From the NCBI GenBank assembly GCA_016187935.1, contig JACPIU010000026.1, positions 310,001-374,000 of the forward strand: a stretch of 64,000 bases of DNA, read 5' to 3'. Made by a program: the position numbers and the translations under genes. The notes below the pieces were generated by a model. The model was not told the DNA's origin. It ran no database searches and worked only from the letters and a program-made list of their open reading frames with translations. Origin of the DNA: Bdellovibrio sp. (GTDB lineage: Bacteria; Bdellovibrionota; Bacteriovoracia; Bacteriovoracales; Bacteriovoracaceae). Shown here piece after piece: positions 1 through 46,667 of the stretch (position 1 is the stretch's first letter; each line of letters starts with the position of its first letter).

Positions 1-981
1 GGTGTAATTTAATCCACTGCCGCTAGAACTCTTGAATACGATGCCATCGTACCCCTTCTGTTTAATGTATTCTGATACAAACTGCGTTGGCAGATAGTCT
101 AGGTATGAACTTTTTGGGTTGATAGGTTTTGAGATATCTTTACCGAATTCATTTAAAAAATTCTTATATCTATATATCATGGGAAAGCTTTTACCCCATT
201 TAAATGGCGACCCAATATATTCAGATGTCAACTCGACAAACCTGCATTCGCGGACGATTTTAAATGTGCCTATGCTCACCTCACTCGTGGTGTCTGGTCT
301 AATTTCAGAAACACATGTTTCAGGATTATCTGATAGATACAAATAAGCAATTCCCTGAGGATTTAGTCTGCCAAATACTGCATCTTTTGGTGGAGGTGGG
401 CCCATTTTGTTAGTCGTGTAAGGTTTATTTTCTTGTTGAGTCCTCGCCCTGTATAATATCGTGCCGACTTCGACTGCAATCTGGTTGGCTTCGATTATTT
501 TGTCTATTATTTCATTGGCAAAGGTTTTCGGGGCAAATCTGTTGACGTGCCTGATTTCATAACAAAAATCACTCCACAAATTTGCCTTCGTCGAAAATTC
601 TTCATACCAATCATCTTCTATGTCAACTGCGTCATTCATGAAATCGTAGAAAGTTCCATCTCTGGGGTCGTCTTCATAGATAGAGGATAAAATGCTCTCT
701 CCTACACTGGGATCATCAAAAATGCCCCAATCGTGGGTAAGCTTATCCCAGATCATGTTCTCGCTATTGTCTTGCTCCTTTAATATTTCCATCGGATAAA
801 AATTTGTAATGGCAGTGTAGAGATTTATGACTGGTGTCACTAAGGATTTAAATTCCGTTAGCTCTATGGCCATAACATCTTCTGCGCCACAGAAAGAGCA
901 TTCATCAATTTGCTCACCCTTCGTTTTAATATGGTCTATCATCCATTCATCTTGAAAACAGTTTATACAACAGTGATTCAT
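1..981 (-). CDS. HEPN/RES-type toxin-like protein (3' part cut by window edge)
   Basis: This reading frame is open over 327 codons from an ATG at 981 to the window edge, with no stop seen. The N-terminus has two CxxC pairs (C5/C8 and C28/C31), suggesting a zinc ribbon. The second half matches the RES domain: LYRAR near residue 177-180, then GRLNP, IAYLYL and SEIRP (E226), and a C-terminal YDGIVFKSS segment ending in SGLNY. RES toxins are known to consume NAD+ and are named after conserved Arg, Glu and Ser. The larger form with an N-terminal HEPN/RES-N region is a recognised variant. The gene lies about 70 bases downstream of a Xre-like gene on the same strand, the usual antitoxin-toxin order. 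No ATG, GTG or TTG lies between 981 and the upstream stop, so the start is fairly secure. The last residues are missing. Confidence 0.8.
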   Translation of the reverse strand, partial: MNHCCINCFQDEWMIDHIKTKGEQIDECSFCGAEDVMAIELTEFKSLVTPVINLYTAITNFYPMEILKEQDNSENMIWDKLTHDWGIFDDPSVGESILSSIYEDDPRDGTFYDFMNDAVDIEDDWYEEFSTKANLWSDFCYEIRHVNRFAPKTFANEIIDKIIEANQIAVEVGTILYRARTQQENKPYTTNKMGPPPPKDAVFGRLNPQGIAYLYLSDNPETCVSEIRPDTTSEVSIGTFKIVRECRFVELTSEYIGSPFKWGKSFPMIYRYKNFLNEFGKDISKPINPKSSYLDYLPTQFVSEYIKQKGYDGIVFKSSSGSGLNYT

Positions 982-1051: not shown

Positions 1052-1447
1052 TCACGCAGCTTGAGATTTGCTCGGAAAACTCTTGCTGCGGAAGTATTCT
1101 TTTATCATTGGTTCGAGATATTCCAAAATTTTTCTTCTTCTATCAAGACCAAATTCTTTTTTCCCGCTCTCGAAATTTGAAAGATCGCCCTGGTCTATTC
1201 GCGTGTGTTCGTATAGCTCACCCTGCGTGATGTCTAACTTGTCCCTACATGTTGCCAGCCAGCTTTTGAAGAGTGGGCTGCCAATTTCTGGAGGGATTAA
1301 CGCTGAATCCTCAAGAAATTGCTCGATAATTGCTGGACTCAGGTAGGTCGCAAAGTATCTAAATATGGCTTTATCAACCATAATTGCATTTCTGGTCTTG
1401 CTTTCTAGTATGGTGGTTAACATATTGAATACGTTGTGCTCGTCCAT
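1052..1447 (-). CDS. Xre-like HTH protein, probable partner or antitoxin of the RES protein
   Basis: A 131-residue protein with a Xre/Cro-like helix-turn-helix at about residues 68-112 (LDITQGELYEHTRIDQGDLS followed by a DRRRKILEYL helix). The N-terminal 60 residues are mostly helical and have no match I recognise. It precedes the RES-domain gene on the same strand. In known Xre-RES modules the Xre protein binds the toxin and represses the operon. The HTH here is not the classic DUF2384-type antitoxin, so the assignment rests on order and spacing. It diverges from the small gene at 1643, leaving about 195 bases for divergent promoters. Confidence 0.65.
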   Translation of the reverse strand: MDEHNVFNMLTTILESKTRNAIMVDKAIFRYFATYLSPAIIEQFLEDSALIPPEIGSPLFKSWLATCRDKLDITQGELYEHTRIDQGDLSNFESGKKEFGLDRRRKILEYLEPMIKEYFRSKSFPSKSQAA

Positions 1448-6236: not shown

Positions 6237-6494
6237 ATGGAACAAGAAAAAAAGATTGAACCAAAAACGGTCAATCTCACCAAACTGAAATCGCTTAATA
6301 ATCAACAATTAGAAGAGAGGATTAAGGAAATCCCAATCAAGATCAAAAACAAGCAAGATTACTACTCAAAAATGCACCAAACCAATCTGGAAAGACTGAA
6401 GATTTACGTGGCCTATAAACGTGAAGAGGAGGCCGCGTGCAAGAAGATGCTGGCGGACCGACAAAGGCCCACGACTGAAAAAAAAGTCAACTAG
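6237..6494 (+). CDS. 85-residue charged helical protein; N-terminal part of a putative frameshift product
   Basis: The start is secure: a GGAGGTC ribosome site lies directly upstream of the ATG. The protein is rich in Lys, Glu and Gln and predicted to be one or two long helices or a coiled coil (residues 12-70, LNNQQLEERIKEIPIKIKNKQ...). I recognise no family. It ends in the frame GAA AAA AAA GTC AAC TAG, where the run of eight A (6478-6485) can slip into the -1 frame and continue into the 361 codons that follow. If no shift occurs the 85-residue form is released. Confidence 0.7.
   Translation: MEQEKKIEPKTVNLTKLKSLNNQQLEERIKEIPIKIKNKQDYYSKMHQTNLERLKIYVAYKREEEAACKKMLADRQRPTTEKKVN
6463..6494 (+). 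promoter_or_regulatory. candidate -1 ribosomal frameshift site (A8 run)
   Basis: Eight A bases at 6478-6485 give the zero-frame codons AAA AAA (6480-6485), which can re-pair one base back. An internal Shine-Dalgarno-like AAAGG lies at 6463-6467, 10 bases before the run, the spacing that stimulates slippage in dnaX. The zero frame stops 6 bases after the run (TAG 6492-6494). A hairpin GTGGTC (6507-6512) with GGCCAC (6522-6527) is 21 bases beyond the run, farther than usual. Confidence 0.5.
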
Positions 6495-7570
6495 ACCTAT
6501 TTGATGGTGGTCATCCTAGGCGGCCACACTTAAAGGAAGAGAGAGAGATTCCCAGGTTAGTATTAGTTCAAGACGAAGACCTTTCAATAAAAGAGGTCGA
6601 TCTCATATCTGCTAGATGTTCGTGCGCAAGTTTCTTACATAATGGCCCAAGTGAGCATCTTAAACTGGCTGGTGATATTTACATTAACAAGGGAAGGAAA
6701 TACCGCTTCTTAATCTATAGTGCATTCCACAAAGAGGTGCGGCGGGGAAATCTCCTTTTGGGTACAAGCTGGGCGGAAATTATTCAAGTCATAAGTGGTG
6801 AATCTGGTCTGATTAAGTATTGCCACAAAATTGTTTTTGAAGAGACCAGGAACATTGAACTTTATTACGACCTTATCTCTACATCAAAATCAGCGTTACA
6901 ACTGGCCCAAAGTTTAATTTTGAGCATTAAAAAGTGGGAATTAAAATGCCTCCCTAATCACACAAAAAACTGGATCGATGGCCACGAGAGTTATCTGGTA
7001 AAACCAGATTTAACAAATGAAGACTTTCTTAGCGCCTCCACACTAACAGAGGCCTATCGCTCTTGGTTTTTCTTTAAAAAACACAAAATCCGACGGGAAG
7101 AACTAAAGGAACTGTTTCAAAGAAAGCATAATCAAAATAACAAACTGACAACCTTTCTAAGGCATTCGGGAACATCTGGTTACGATTTTATGGTGGCTTT
7201 AGAGCTGTCACTCGATGTCCTCGATTGGAATGAAATTAATCGGCTGAAGGTTAGAAACGTTCCTACAGAGACAGGTTTTATACCAAGATTCGAAAGATAT
7301 GTTTATGACTGCCATACATGGGCCGGGAAAGCACTGCTGAAAAAGCACTTTGATAAATTTATTCGCGATGACGACTTGGAAGGTGTCGGACTTGATTTGA
7401 GGTTTAGCGGGTTGATTACTGCCCTGTACAAGCGGGAGAAGGCTTTTGAAATCGGAGAGCAGGAGTGGATTTGGGATAAGGTAAAAATTGAGGCGACGAA
7501 ATTAAAAGGAGTTATGAACCTAGAAAGACTGTTTTACTCATCGATTTTTTCACAATCTAGGAAAAATTGA
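6479..7570 (+). CDS. unassigned protein lacking its own start; C-terminal part of a putative frameshift fusion
   Basis: The frame is open from just after a TGA at 6476-6478 to a stop at 7568-7570. It has no ATG, GTG or TTG until a GTG at 6737, yet the stretch before that GTG reads as good protein (IPRLVLVQDEDLSIKEVDLI, then LAGDIYINKGRKYRFLIYSAF). The likeliest explanation is entry by -1 frameshift from the upstream ORF, giving 83 + 361 = 444 residues. The first residues after the shift are SQLDLFDGG; QLDLF matches the beta-clamp binding consensus QL(S/D)LF. The rest is mixed alpha/beta with no motif I can name. Alternatives are a disrupted gene or translation from GTG 6737 (277 residues). 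Confidence 0.6.
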   Translation, partial: KKSQLDLFDGGHPRRPHLKEEREIPRLVLVQDEDLSIKEVDLISARCSCASFLHNGPSEHLKLAGDIYINKGRKYRFLIYSAFHKEVRRGNLLLGTSWAEIIQVISGESGLIKYCHKIVFEETRNIELYYDLISTSKSALQLAQSLILSIKKWELKCLPNHTKNWIDGHESYLVKPDLTNEDFLSASTLTEAYRSWFFFKKHKIRREELKELFQRKHNQNNKLTTFLRHSGTSGYDFMVALELSLDVLDWNEINRLKVRNVPTETGFIPRFERYVYDCHTWAGKALLKKHFDKFIRDDDLEGVGLDLRFSGLITALYKREKAFEIGEQEWIWDKVKIEATKLKGVMNLERLFYSSIFSQSRKN

Positions 7571-8800: not shown

Positions 8801-9868
8801 ATGATAGATACGATTGAGATAGAAGGGGTCGCGCCGAGAGCAGTCATTGATCAATTGCAGATGGCGATGCTTGAACACGATGGTGATGAGGGTGCCGTTG
8901 TCAAAATGAAACAATGGCGATTCCATGGAAACTGCAAAAAAGTGCAGACGATTAATCAAGAGGGCAAATTCCTAGAGATCAGGTTTAATAACGAAGGGGA
9001 AGTCCCTCCAGAATTTGAAAACTGTCTTATTATTCGCACCCACCTAAGTCAGTTTAAAACATTTAATAATTTTTTAAACTGGGCTGAACGGTTCCGACCA
9101 CAAGAGAATTGGATATGGTTATTTAATAATTTCAAAATAAAAAGGATGGATTTGGCTATCGATATTCCTTTTAGATGCGAAACAGTTGCAAAATCATTGC
9201 ATAGGCCAGGTGTAAGAATTGTTGAACGTTTTAAAGGAAAACAAAAAAGCAAAAAATTTAGCAAACGTAACAGAGACCATGAATATGCATTCCCTCCTGA
9301 AGATATTAGACCAGGATTTACTTACTACTGGGGCTGTCGCCCTGAGGTCATGCTGTGTTATGAAAGAGAACTTGAGATTCTAGATGTAGATGGACGTGTT
9401 AAAAGAATATTAGGCTGTAGAATTGAAATGAGATATACAAAACCGTCCAAGGTTCCAGTTAAGAACTTTTTCGATGTTGAAGCGTATCTGAACTTTAATC
9501 CGTATTCAAAAATTACAACCAATGAAATGAAGCTAACACAGCTGTATCCTGCAAAGCCGGCAATTCAGAGACTCATTAATGGATTCATCGCAAGAGTTGA
9601 CGAGATAGGTTTTAGTCAGGCGAGAAAAGAATATAGCGTCGATAGCACATACATAAAAAAGATTGGTCCATACTTTGGAACTGTTGAATCGATTGATCTC
9701 AAGGGTATGTATGACCAAAGCATATTGAATTTTTTTGGAGATACACCCTTTATTCCTATTCATTGTGATTCAGTGCGAATCGAAAACCCGGATAAAGATG
9801 ATTCAGCATGGAGACCTTTAATGATGGGAGCGGATGAGGGATATTCGTTTCCTGGGCAAAATTTATAG
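8801..9868 (+). CDS. replication initiation protein, Rep_trans/RstA-like
   Basis: 355 residues from the ATG at 8801, which is preceded by GGAGGAAAT; the frame continues upstream to 8744 but without a ribosome site. The architecture resembles the Rep_trans family (phage CTX RstA, Gram-positive plasmid Rep and ICE initiators): an N-terminal beta-rich part, the signature IKRMDLAIDIP at about residues 114-124, a YYWGCRPEVMLCYERE segment and an IEMRYTK strand. Such initiators nick the double-strand origin with a tyrosine and start rolling-circle replication. Tyrosines in the central region are candidates, but I cannot say which. The presence of rep in an integrated element implies replication after excision. 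Confidence 0.7.
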   Translation: MIDTIEIEGVAPRAVIDQLQMAMLEHDGDEGAVVKMKQWRFHGNCKKVQTINQEGKFLEIRFNNEGEVPPEFENCLIIRTHLSQFKTFNNFLNWAERFRPQENWIWLFNNFKIKRMDLAIDIPFRCETVAKSLHRPGVRIVERFKGKQKSKKFSKRNRDHEYAFPPEDIRPGFTYYWGCRPEVMLCYERELEILDVDGRVKRILGCRIEMRYTKPSKVPVKNFFDVEAYLNFNPYSKITTNEMKLTQLYPAKPAIQRLINGFIARVDEIGFSQARKEYSVDSTYIKKIGPYFGTVESIDLKGMYDQSILNFFGDTPFIPIHCDSVRIENPDKDDSAWRPLMMGADEGYSFPGQNL

Positions 9869-10043: not shown

Positions 10044-10289
10044 ATGAAAAATATATCTTTCCTTAGCAATACCTTGAGCGGTTTGAATAATAGTGATAGA
10101 CAGCTGAAGCTCTTTTATAGTCAACAAATATGGCGCATCGAAGAAGTCGCCGAGTTTCTGCGTGTTTCCGTTGGACATGTGTACAACTTGGCTTCAAGAC
10201 GAGAAATCCCGTTTAGAAAGAAAGGTGGCAAGTTGTTCTTTTTTCCCTCTGAAATTCTGAAATGGATCGATGAAGGAGTTAAAGAATGA
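10044..10289 (+). CDS. excisionase-like HTH protein
   Basis: 81 residues from the ATG at 10044; a TTG at 9984 would add 20 hydrophobic residues that do not fit the family. The C-terminal half is a MerR/excisionase-type HTH (WRIEEVAEFLRVSVGHVYNL, then REIPFRKKGGKLFFFPSEILKWID), the helix_turn_helix_17 or DNA-binding excisionase layout. It overlaps the integrase start by 4 bases (ATGA), indicating translational coupling. Its likely role is directing the integrase toward excision, or repressing it. Confidence 0.8.
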   Translation: MKNISFLSNTLSGLNNSDRQLKLFYSQQIWRIEEVAEFLRVSVGHVYNLASRREIPFRKKGGKLFFFPSEILKWIDEGVKE

Positions 10290-11518
10290 AAGAGAAATCA
10301 CAGCGTTATCTTACGCTTAAGCACCACCCAGGTATCCGAAAGGATACAACAAGCAATTCATACGTTGTCACGAAAAGTTTTAAAGGTAAGCGTTACTATG
10401 AATCCTTTGATGGCCTTCGTGATGCGGCTGAATGGAAAAATAGTTTTAACCCAAATGTGCCAGCGTTTAAATTAACTCATGGCCTTAACACTAGAGTGAT
10501 TGAATTGAATGGGCGAGATCGTGGTATGAATTTTGAGAAAGCTTGGCTTTTGTATCTACAAATCAAAGTCGCGACTCTTGAGCAATCTACTATCGATTTC
10601 ATAAAAAAATATACTGAGTTTTTTTTCACGCTTGGCCCAATGAATATGGCTCACATTTTTCCAGAGATTATTGATGAGGTTGTGAATAGCAAAAAGCAAA
10701 AGGCGATTCTGACTAATAGTAGGCGGATGAACTTTGACCACCCTCTTACCCAGCTCAGAGCATTTTTTAATTGGTATCAGGAAAATTACGATTTCAGTTT
10801 TAGAAACCCAGTACTCAAACGTCATTTCTCCATGGGGATGATCAAGAAACCGGTCGAGCGAAATAAAAAGATGATGCCAGATGAGGTAAATCTTTTCTTC
10901 TCTGCACTTCCTGATTTCTACCGAGATTTTGCTATAGTTCAATTCTACTTAGCTAGTCGGGTATCAGAAGTGGCCGGGCTTCAATTCTCAAGCATTGATT
11001 TTAAAAATAGCTCAATTCTTGTGATGCATGTAGTTGTCTGGGATCACTGTAAACGATTCATGCAGCTCAGGCCTTACACAAAAAATAAGGCGGTTCGGTA
11101 CTGCCACATGAATGAAACCCTTGAGACAATACTCAGGCGGCGTTTAACGGCCAAAGCAAGCGGTTCTGATTACGTTTTTCATGACGATGGTGGCGCACTG
11201 TCATATAGATCAATTCAGCACGCCTATAACAGGGCGCTAAAGAAATGCGGTTTGTCTGATAAGTATTCAAGCACCCACATCATGCGACACACAATGGCAA
11301 CCATCACGCGACTTGTAACAGGTAGCTTAGATGCCACTCAAGCTGTCACTGGCCACAAGGATTCAAAACTTGTTCAGCACTATGCAAGCGTTCCAGAAGG
11401 GGCGCAGAAAAATGCGGTGATACAAGTGGAGGCATACATGAAAAAATCTCAGGCGTGCGAGCAACTGCGAGCAAATCAAAATTTTCAGGAAGGAAATTTT
11501 GTAGTTTCAGGAAGATAG
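10286..11518 (+). CDS. tyrosine recombinase integrase of the island
   Basis: 410 residues. The catalytic domain shows Arg in YLASRVSEVAGLQ (about residue 223), the HxxR box in STHIMRHTMAT (about 328-334), the conserved His in TGHKDSKLVQ (about 356) and the nucleophile Tyr in QHYASVPEGA (about 365). An N-terminal arm-binding region and a SAM-like core-binding domain precede it (EKAWLLYLQIK...). The gene points at, and stops 9 bases from, the tRNA-Ser 3' end, the standard arrangement for an integrase that uses that tRNA gene as attB. The C-terminal tail after the tyrosine is about 45 residues long. Confidence 0.93.
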   Translation: MKEKSQRYLTLKHHPGIRKDTTSNSYVVTKSFKGKRYYESFDGLRDAAEWKNSFNPNVPAFKLTHGLNTRVIELNGRDRGMNFEKAWLLYLQIKVATLEQSTIDFIKKYTEFFFTLGPMNMAHIFPEIIDEVVNSKKQKAILTNSRRMNFDHPLTQLRAFFNWYQENYDFSFRNPVLKRHFSMGMIKKPVERNKKMMPDEVNLFFSALPDFYRDFAIVQFYLASRVSEVAGLQFSSIDFKNSSILVMHVVVWDHCKRFMQLRPYTKNKAVRYCHMNETLETILRRRLTAKASGSDYVFHDDGGALSYRSIQHAYNRALKKCGLSDKYSSTHIMRHTMATITRLVTGSLDATQAVTGHKDSKLVQHYASVPEGAQKNAVIQVEAYMKKSQACEQLRANQNFQEGNFVVSGR

Positions 11519-11526
11519 AGATTAAA

Positions 11527-11575
11527 TGGCGGAGAACAAGGGATTCGAACCCTCGAACGGTTGCCCGTTACATGC
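11527..11575. other. probable attachment site (right end) within tRNA-Ser 3' half
   Basis: Tyrosine integrases encoded next to a tRNA gene usually recombine within its 3' half or T-loop, restoring an intact tRNA. Here the integrase side of the junction is the CCA end at 11527. The exact core cannot be defined without the left end. Confidence 0.45.
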
Positions 11576-11614
11576 TTTCCAAGCATGCGCCTTCGACCAC
11601 TCGGCCAATTCTCC
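11527..11614 (-). tRNA. tRNA-Ser (GGA)
   Basis: 88 bases on the minus strand. The acceptor stem GGAGAAT pairs with GTTCTCC, the anticodon stem is CATGC/GCATG with loop TTGGAAA (anticodon GGA), a long variable arm follows (AACGGGCAACCGTT), and the T-arm is AGGGTTCGAATCCCT. The discriminator G and CCA are encoded. A long variable arm and GGA anticodon identify tRNA-Ser reading UCC/UCU. It is the integration target of the neighbouring island. Confidence 0.96.
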
Positions 11615-46059: not shown

Positions 46060-46667
46060 TAGAAATTAACCTCCTTGAGCAGAAAAAACCCTTCAAACTT
46101 CCAGTGATCATGGGAGTTGATCTTGCCGCTATTAATTATAAGAGTATCCTGTTTGCCATTGTATTAAGCTATGTCCCTGATTGGTTTCTTTATCCAATTT
46201 GGGTAGAGGAATTAGAGAACGTCGGTAGAGAGAAAGAGGTTTTAAACCAGAAACTGCAAAAGCTTGAAGCCGATGTCAGGGGAAATGAGTCTGTTAAAAA
46301 ACAATTGGACTTATTTAATAATCAGGTTACCAAGCTAAAAGAACGTTCCACTCAAGTTGAGCAAATTATCAAACAGAGAACTAATCCAAATAAAATTTTG
46401 GAACGAGTTGCAAGAAATATTCCTGAAGATATGTGGCTTACTGAATTGATTGTTGATGTGGATAGAAAGGTCAGCATTAGAGGGATGTCTACTTCCTATA
46501 AAAGCATAGGTAACTTTATTATTTTACTGAATGAATCTTTGTTTTTTGGTAAATCTCTGACATTAAGTGATTCTAAGACAGAAGAAGATAAAGAAGAAGG
46601 ACAAGGCAAAAGAATTGAGGTTTTTACCATTCAGGGACGTGTTGAGTCCTATGATCCATTGCAGTAG
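46056..46667 (+). CDS. pilN: type IV pilus assembly protein PilN
   Basis: 203 residues. The N-terminal MIEINLLEQKKPF fits the INLLPxR segment that PilM binds. A membrane segment follows at about 30-50, then a coiled coil (LNQKLQKLEADVRGN...) and a ferredoxin-like domain (MWLTELIVDVDRKVSIRGMS). The partner PilO starts 11 bases later. Confidence 0.93.
   Translation: MIEINLLEQKKPFKLPVIMGVDLAAINYKSILFAIVLSYVPDWFLYPIWVEELENVGREKEVLNQKLQKLEADVRGNESVKKQLDLFNNQVTKLKERSTQVEQIIKQRTNPNKILERVARNIPEDMWLTELIVDVDRKVSIRGMSTSYKSIGNFIILLNESLFFGKSLTLSDSKTEEDKEEGQGKRIEVFTIQGRVESYDPLQ

Follow-up and report, generated by a model that had tools for sequence, protein, structure and literature searches.

In the 64,000-nucleotide stretch analysed here (the window), an open frame in the −1 register with no start codon of its own near its beginning follows a short gene, opens with a predicted β-clamp-binding peptide, QLDLF, and encodes a protein with remote similarity to the C-terminal region of RarA. 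Low-level slippage at the run of eight A's (A8) between the two frames, yielding a fusion of 444 residues with a predicted clamp-binding linker that would dock on the host DnaN, is the explanation tentatively put first, at a little under an even chance. A decaying gene is a serious rival, second to slippage, while an AUU start and an assembly error are given lower odds; the confidences expressed below are not exclusive, as the reading of QLDLF as a chance peptide overlaps both the AUU and the decay readings. The features of the pair are as follows.

6237..6494, forward strand: ORF1 (P0002), 85 amino acids, basic and helical, with a strong Shine-Dalgarno sequence (ACGGAGGTCACATG) and stop codon TAG at 6492-6494
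6478..6486, forward strand: A8G run, the proposed −1 slip site, with the in-frame heptamer A_AAA_AAA at 6479-6485
6485..7570, forward strand: ORF2 (P0001), −1 frame, 361 codons plus stop, a SWIM-like plus RarA-C-like protein
6488..6502, forward strand: QLDLF, predicted β-clamp-binding motif, ORF2 residues 2-6
6548..6550, forward strand: AUU, candidate start of ORF2, with AAGGA 10 nt upstream
6617..6658, forward strand: SWIM-like CSC...SEH, the third ligand Cys being Ser in the window copy
6701..6934, forward strand: RarA/MgsA C-terminal-like helical domain (SAFHKEVRRG...), about residues 73-150

The −1 frame opens past the TGA at 6476-6478, is open from 6479 to 7570, and from 6485 reads SQLDLFDGGHPRRP..., with S-Q-L-D-L-F at 6485-6502, exactly as the sequence-only reading had placed it after the slip site. 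The first ATG, GTG or TTG of the frame lies at 6737, within the conserved part and 86 codons in; among the 41 window frames of at least 200 codons, it alone has its first start at least 30 codons in (median 4). ORF1 and the −1 frame overlap at 6479-6494 alone, which includes seven of the eight A's of the run (6478-6485), and passage from one to the other is possible solely in the 17-nt stretch obtained when the first A is counted, a stretch dominated by the A8. An A8 is present in 174 of the 63,983 17-nt windows of the 64 kb (0.27%). The joined frames translate without a stop through the junction ...EKKSQLDLF... (spanning sequence ...TEKKSQLDLFDGG...).

A single base makes the frame continuous, which is also what would be seen if one A had been lost or gained in sequencing or assembly; the true gene would then have A9 (or six A's) and encode, in one unbroken frame, an ordinary fusion of the 444-residue type whose clamp motif is internal. 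The source is a single draft assembly (4.4 Mb, 48 contigs). Against such an error, all 26 other A/T runs of at least 8 in the window, where A8 and A9 runs are common, sit within intact frames, so that such runs were assembled well, and we consider this explanation very unlikely.

The heptamer A_AAA_AAA lies in frame at the frame overlap, as in programmed −1 frameshifting. No Shine-Dalgarno stimulator of the published types, as defined in the portion of PMC4066793 available, was found 6-17 nt upstream of the slip site, and the fold downstream is nothing unusual (z 0.23). A better heptamer, A_AAA_AAG, is in frame at 6248-6254 near the ORF1 start and has no evident use. In the accessible text of PMC1088944, A8 is treated as non-slippery in many genomes, and slippage on A8-A9 is used by insertion sequence (IS) elements in some bacteria, with A8 IS elements in two.

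A bacterial-type profile run over 368 genomes of the phylum identified ORF2 in four: the window's genome, G001, G243 and G301. Relatives of ORF1 precede ORF2 in G243 and G301, where ORF2 begins at a GTG of its own. In G243 this codon overlaps the stop of ORF1, in G301 it lies 48 nt beyond that stop, and neither copy carries the motif. The frameshift layout is thus present in one of the three loci having both ORFs, and the site is not conserved in the two compared with it. The proposal of the sequence-only reading that frameshifting is used and switches clamp recruitment finds no support, and these loci come close to what that reading named as its refutation, homologues of the same layout without a conserved Q-L-x-L-F: they have the ORF1-ORF2 pair and no motif, with ORF2 starting at GTG. 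An in-frame A_AAA_AAG in G243, from which the −1 frame is open into ORF2, may be a chance arrangement and was rejected as a conserved frameshift case because the GTG start of ORF2 overlaps the ORF1 stop. Between ORF1 and ORF2 of G301 (L046:6291-6340), inspection by eye showed a hairpin that has a T-run and resembles a terminator; it would hold ORF2 expression low by another route. Weak HMM matches around model positions 101-136, seen in the majority of 21 of the 368 genomes, were taken as RarA, one of them (L020) having been examined fully. The ORF of G081 (L003) is unrelated.

Homopolymer runs are indel hotspots. This, together with a frame-broken layout unique to this genome, the absence of frameshift stimulators and the loss of the third SWIM Cys, suits a decaying gene, in which an ORF2 start before QLDLF (as in the phage JP1 relative) or an in-frame fusion would have been silenced by a recent indel or start loss, leaving QLDLF as the fossil of a real clamp motif. 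Unclustered frame transitions are likewise treated mainly as indels or errors in the part of PMC3711429 available. Yet ORF2 runs over its 361 codons without a stop and retains most family-invariant residues, and the other island ORFs examined look intact; we regard decay as somewhat unlikely in itself.

The family to which ORF2 belongs is uncharacterised and is found in phages and integrated elements. Relatives of ORF2 outside the phylum search come mainly from phages: they are those of Agrobacterium phage JP1, of four Rhodobacter phages, of viral contigs and of a Rickettsiales MAG contig, together with gp90 of Arthrobacter phage DanielleIgnace. No relatives of P0001 were found in the plasmid set by tblastn or with the queries P0004, P0017 and P0018, nor in the viral_contigs set with P0001 or P0004 alone or with the bacterial-type alignment A4. 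JP1_077, Rhodobacter phage RcTiptonus gp84 and DanielleIgnace gp90 are of the same family as ORF2 and, unlike it, are single genes, each annotated with a start of its own; gp84 has no clamp motif, and is not discussed in the available portion of the RcTiptonus paper (PMC8601537).

The family shares, with some departures, a CxC...CxH SWIM-like cluster, SAFHKxxR...EE and DxHTxxGK...DxRxxG. The cluster is absent from gp90, and P0001 departs from the SWIM zinc finger pattern CxCx(n)CxH at the third Cys, which is kept by the other ten rows of alignment A3; the Pfam SWIM match in P0016 reaches only E 0.064. Several comparisons suggest that the SAFHK region is remotely related to the RarA C terminus. 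The family profile hit six PDB sequences, every one of RarA type (E 0.002-0.06), the top rows of a structural alignment (VIA-align) are RarA C-terminal fragments (Z 9.1, the next being 4.1), and P0016 directly matches annotated RarA genes. These profile, structural and tblastn matches to the RarA C-terminal helical domain (SAFHKS.RGSD...) lie below curated cut-offs, as does that of P0016 to the NCBIfam RarA model (E 2.2e-6). The 361 amino acids of P0001 begin with the SWIM-like and C-terminal-type domains, with no AAA+ ATPase bearing Walker motifs and no Pfam AAA match. ORF2 was not filed as RarA because the family-model matches fall below the curated cut-offs and the ATPase is missing. Pfam, PHROGs, NCBIfam and PADLOC gave no family describing P0001 or ORF1, and Foldseek alone returned nothing for P0001 at E 0.001.

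The ORF2 family remotely resembles RarA/MgsA (WRNIP1, Mgs1) in the helical domain of the C-terminal region (SAF/LHKxxR...YW...EE), and differs in having no AAA+ ATPase, in an extra SWIM-like N terminus and a distinct DxHTxxGK...DxRxxG C-terminal part, and in not reaching the Pfam MgsA_C and NCBIfam cut-offs. An AlphaFold model of P0001 from a nine-row alignment is poor overall (mean pLDDT 55), with the RarA-like helices at about 80 and residues 1-55 below 50. Since those residues are predicted to be unstructured, QLDLF is not buried in the model, burial being what the sequence-only reading had named as refuting its proposal; coming from a poor model, this disorder is weak evidence.

QLDLF fits the published clamp-binding consensus QL(S/D)LF / Q-L-x-L-F (PMC9690074 and PMC4549789, in the passages available), in agreement with the sequence-only reading, and as a Q-L-x-L-F peptide lies in a segment that the low-confidence model leaves accessible. 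The genome encodes DnaN. The motif of E. coli UmuC is QLNLF. At the corresponding site the UmuC-like protein of this genome carries HTLGLF, which counts neither for nor against the consensus here. Across the 4.4-Mb genome, a degenerate motif pattern gave 51 matches against 33 in a reversed control, and among the 51, on both strands, strict QLDLF is encoded six times, two of them inside the window. The second window copy, at 46302, sits inside a PilN-like coiled coil (the PilN name being a reading of the sequence). The probability of QLDLF by chance is low in this short stretch and not negligible somewhere in 64 kb. QLDLF was also seen in a type IV coupling protein (L084, G000:C28, frame from 2712; T4SS-DNA_transf E 5.6e-11), a mobile-element protein in which QQQQLDLFTP, a possible clamp motif, lies about 18 codons past the frame opening.

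What lifts QLDLF above chance is that similar motifs recur at protein ends elsewhere in the family. A pattern derived from the available part of PMC4549789, Q..[LMIF]F (position 1 Gln, position 4 hydrophobic or aromatic, position 5 aromatic), was counted in 16 non-redundant family members including the window protein (6,400 residues). Left out were L099 (identical to L098, as are L102 and L103), three further Rhodobacter phages, duplicate entries of L007-L013, and L101, which is treated separately below. The pattern occurs four times, in each case within 10 residues of a terminus; apart from QLDLF the occurrences are as follows.

Agrobacterium phage JP1 protein, residues 2-6: QIDLF, at the N terminus (MQIDLFD)
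Viral contig L098 protein, residues 5-9: QTGFF
Arthrobacter phage DanielleIgnace gp90, five residues from the C terminus: QTELF, the protein ending GGQTELFDVPGE

L101, 73% identical to gp90, retains QQDLF near its end (GGQQDLFEI...), and L007 has a looser QPTLPL. Within 20 residues of an end, 4 of the 16 members have the motif where 0.15 would be expected, a count reached in 0 of 2000 shuffles; omitting the window protein leaves 3 of 15 where 0.12 would be expected (0 of 2000); at 30 or 40 residues, again omitting it, 5 and 4 of 2000 shuffles matched the observation. These figures are indicative, because the pattern was fixed after the sequences had been seen. The conservation that the sequence-only reading had proposed to check is partial: clamp-like motifs are present at a terminus in JP1, L098, gp90 and L101, and 12 of the 16 members do not have the pattern. 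The mixed positions would fit repeated gain, which has been argued for transposases and is recurrent in mobile-element proteins (PMC4549789, in the sections available).

The same 12 members, and the other window QLDLF within its coiled coil, are what would be expected if QLDLF were a chance pentapeptide with no clamp function. With all four family occurrences terminal and one kept in a relative at 73% identity, this appears unlikely, and we consider it probable that QLDLF is a genuine clamp-binding motif, or the descendant of one. If QLDLF is a real family-type motif, 6488-6502 is coding, now or formerly, and its probable reality speaks for the DNA there being translated now or until recently. 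For it to be decoded at present, the only routes seen are a −1 shift and a transcript with A9.

Residues 1-44 of ORF2 align with the JP1 N terminus, the best match among 11 relatives aligned there, with a score of 36 against 19.5 ± 3.8 (1 of 2000 shuffles); residues 1-21, which lie 5′ of the AUU codon, do so more weakly (29 against 18.4; 26 of 2000). This bears on a separate translation of ORF2 from the AUU at 6548, coupled to ORF1 termination, which would place QLDLF outside the product. The AAGGA 10 nt 5′ of the codon would suit such a start, the product would begin where the G301 ORF2 does (IPRLVLVQDED against VSKLVQASDG), and ORF2 is a separate gene in relatives. AUU starts are very rare, however, and this start would leave unexplained QLDLF and the JP1 likeness upstream of the codon, as well as the coincidence of the A8; we consider it quite unlikely.

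The pair lies inside an island of roughly 13-14 kb, whose right side carries an excisionase-like HTH protein, the integrase and the tRNA gene. Inside it are genes for a Rep_trans-like protein, a serine resolvase and a regulator of the XRE type.

8801..9868, forward strand: Rep_trans-like replication initiator, a sub-threshold match (E 0.0067)
10286..11518, forward strand: tyrosine integrase, adjoining tRNA-Ser
11527..11614, reverse strand: tRNA-Ser(GGA), the integration site, its 3′-end sequence being repeated left of the window

The sequence-only description of an island-encoded protein near a Rep gene is upheld for the island, the Rep gene resting on the sub-threshold match; an alignment of Rep across loci was too weak for use. 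The tRNA-Ser 3′-end sequence recurs twice, over 20 and 21 bp, to the left of the window at distances of about 1.5 and 2.4 kb (near L087 7555 and 8466, window −2445 and −1534), which suggests tandem or successive integrations. Between these copies lies an addiction-module antidote-like gene (L087:7780-8368, reverse strand; dnstrm_HI1420 E 1.6e-5, below cut-off) with a small partner that looks RelE/HigB-like by eye and has no Pfam match. In the left part of the island, a RES-domain protein (window 1-981, reverse strand, continuing left; Pfam RES E 1.9e-13) and an adjoining HTH protein (1052-1447, reverse strand) are likely a RES-Xre toxin-antitoxin pair.

Under the favoured reading, slippage at A8, the ORF2 protein would be related to the RarA C-terminal region, would have no ATPase and would come from a family repeatedly bearing a clamp-binding peptide at a terminus; the start of ORF2 itself would have been lost, or never present, in the tRNA-Ser island. 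A minority of ribosomes or transcripts would slip at the ORF1 A8, by −1 on A_AAA_AAA or by the addition of an A to the mRNA, and would produce a minor ORF1-SQLDLF-ORF2 product with QLDLF in a flexible linker. The linker would dock the fusion on host DnaN and bring a RarA-C-like scaffold to forks, most likely those copying the element. Counted for slippage were the A8 in the 17-nt passage, the open ORF2, the terminal motifs, the JP1 likeness, the disorder, DnaN and the IS precedent; counted against it were the missing Shine-Dalgarno and fold signals, the A8 length, the other 26 A/T runs of at least 8 lying in intact frames, the single locus of three with the layout, the 6248 heptamer, the lost SWIM Cys, the post hoc motif pattern, the 12 of 16 members without it, and JP1 being the best of 11. 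The precedent is that of IS OrfA-OrfB transposases (IS1634 clamp binding, PMC4549789; IS slippage, PMC1088944; available text of both), with which the pair shares a mobile-element protein, an A-run between the ORFs, a −1 frame and a QLxLF-type peptide in a segment predicted to be unstructured. Unlike them, ORF2 is not a transposase, its motif is at the junction and not the C terminus, and no frameshift site is conserved across its relatives.

More broadly, and doubtfully, phages and integrated elements may share ATPase-less RarA-like adaptors that repeatedly gain a terminal clamp peptide with which to capture or divert the host replisome, gated here by slippage such that an abundant short product would be without clamp binding and a rare fusion would have it. 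Judged by titles and the openings of abstracts, none of the matches listed in the literature on RarA, SWIM, phage, clamp and frameshift describes the family or a frameshift-gated clamp motif. RarA/WRNIP1 is widely conserved. Its molecular function is still described as obscure (PMC8735627, in the part available). A family that keeps the RarA C-terminal-like domain, minus the ATPase and plus a clamp peptide, would separate scaffold from motor and would point to sites occupied by clamps as the place where this domain works; were the motif gated by slippage, recoding in mobile elements would reach beyond transposases to replisome adaptors.
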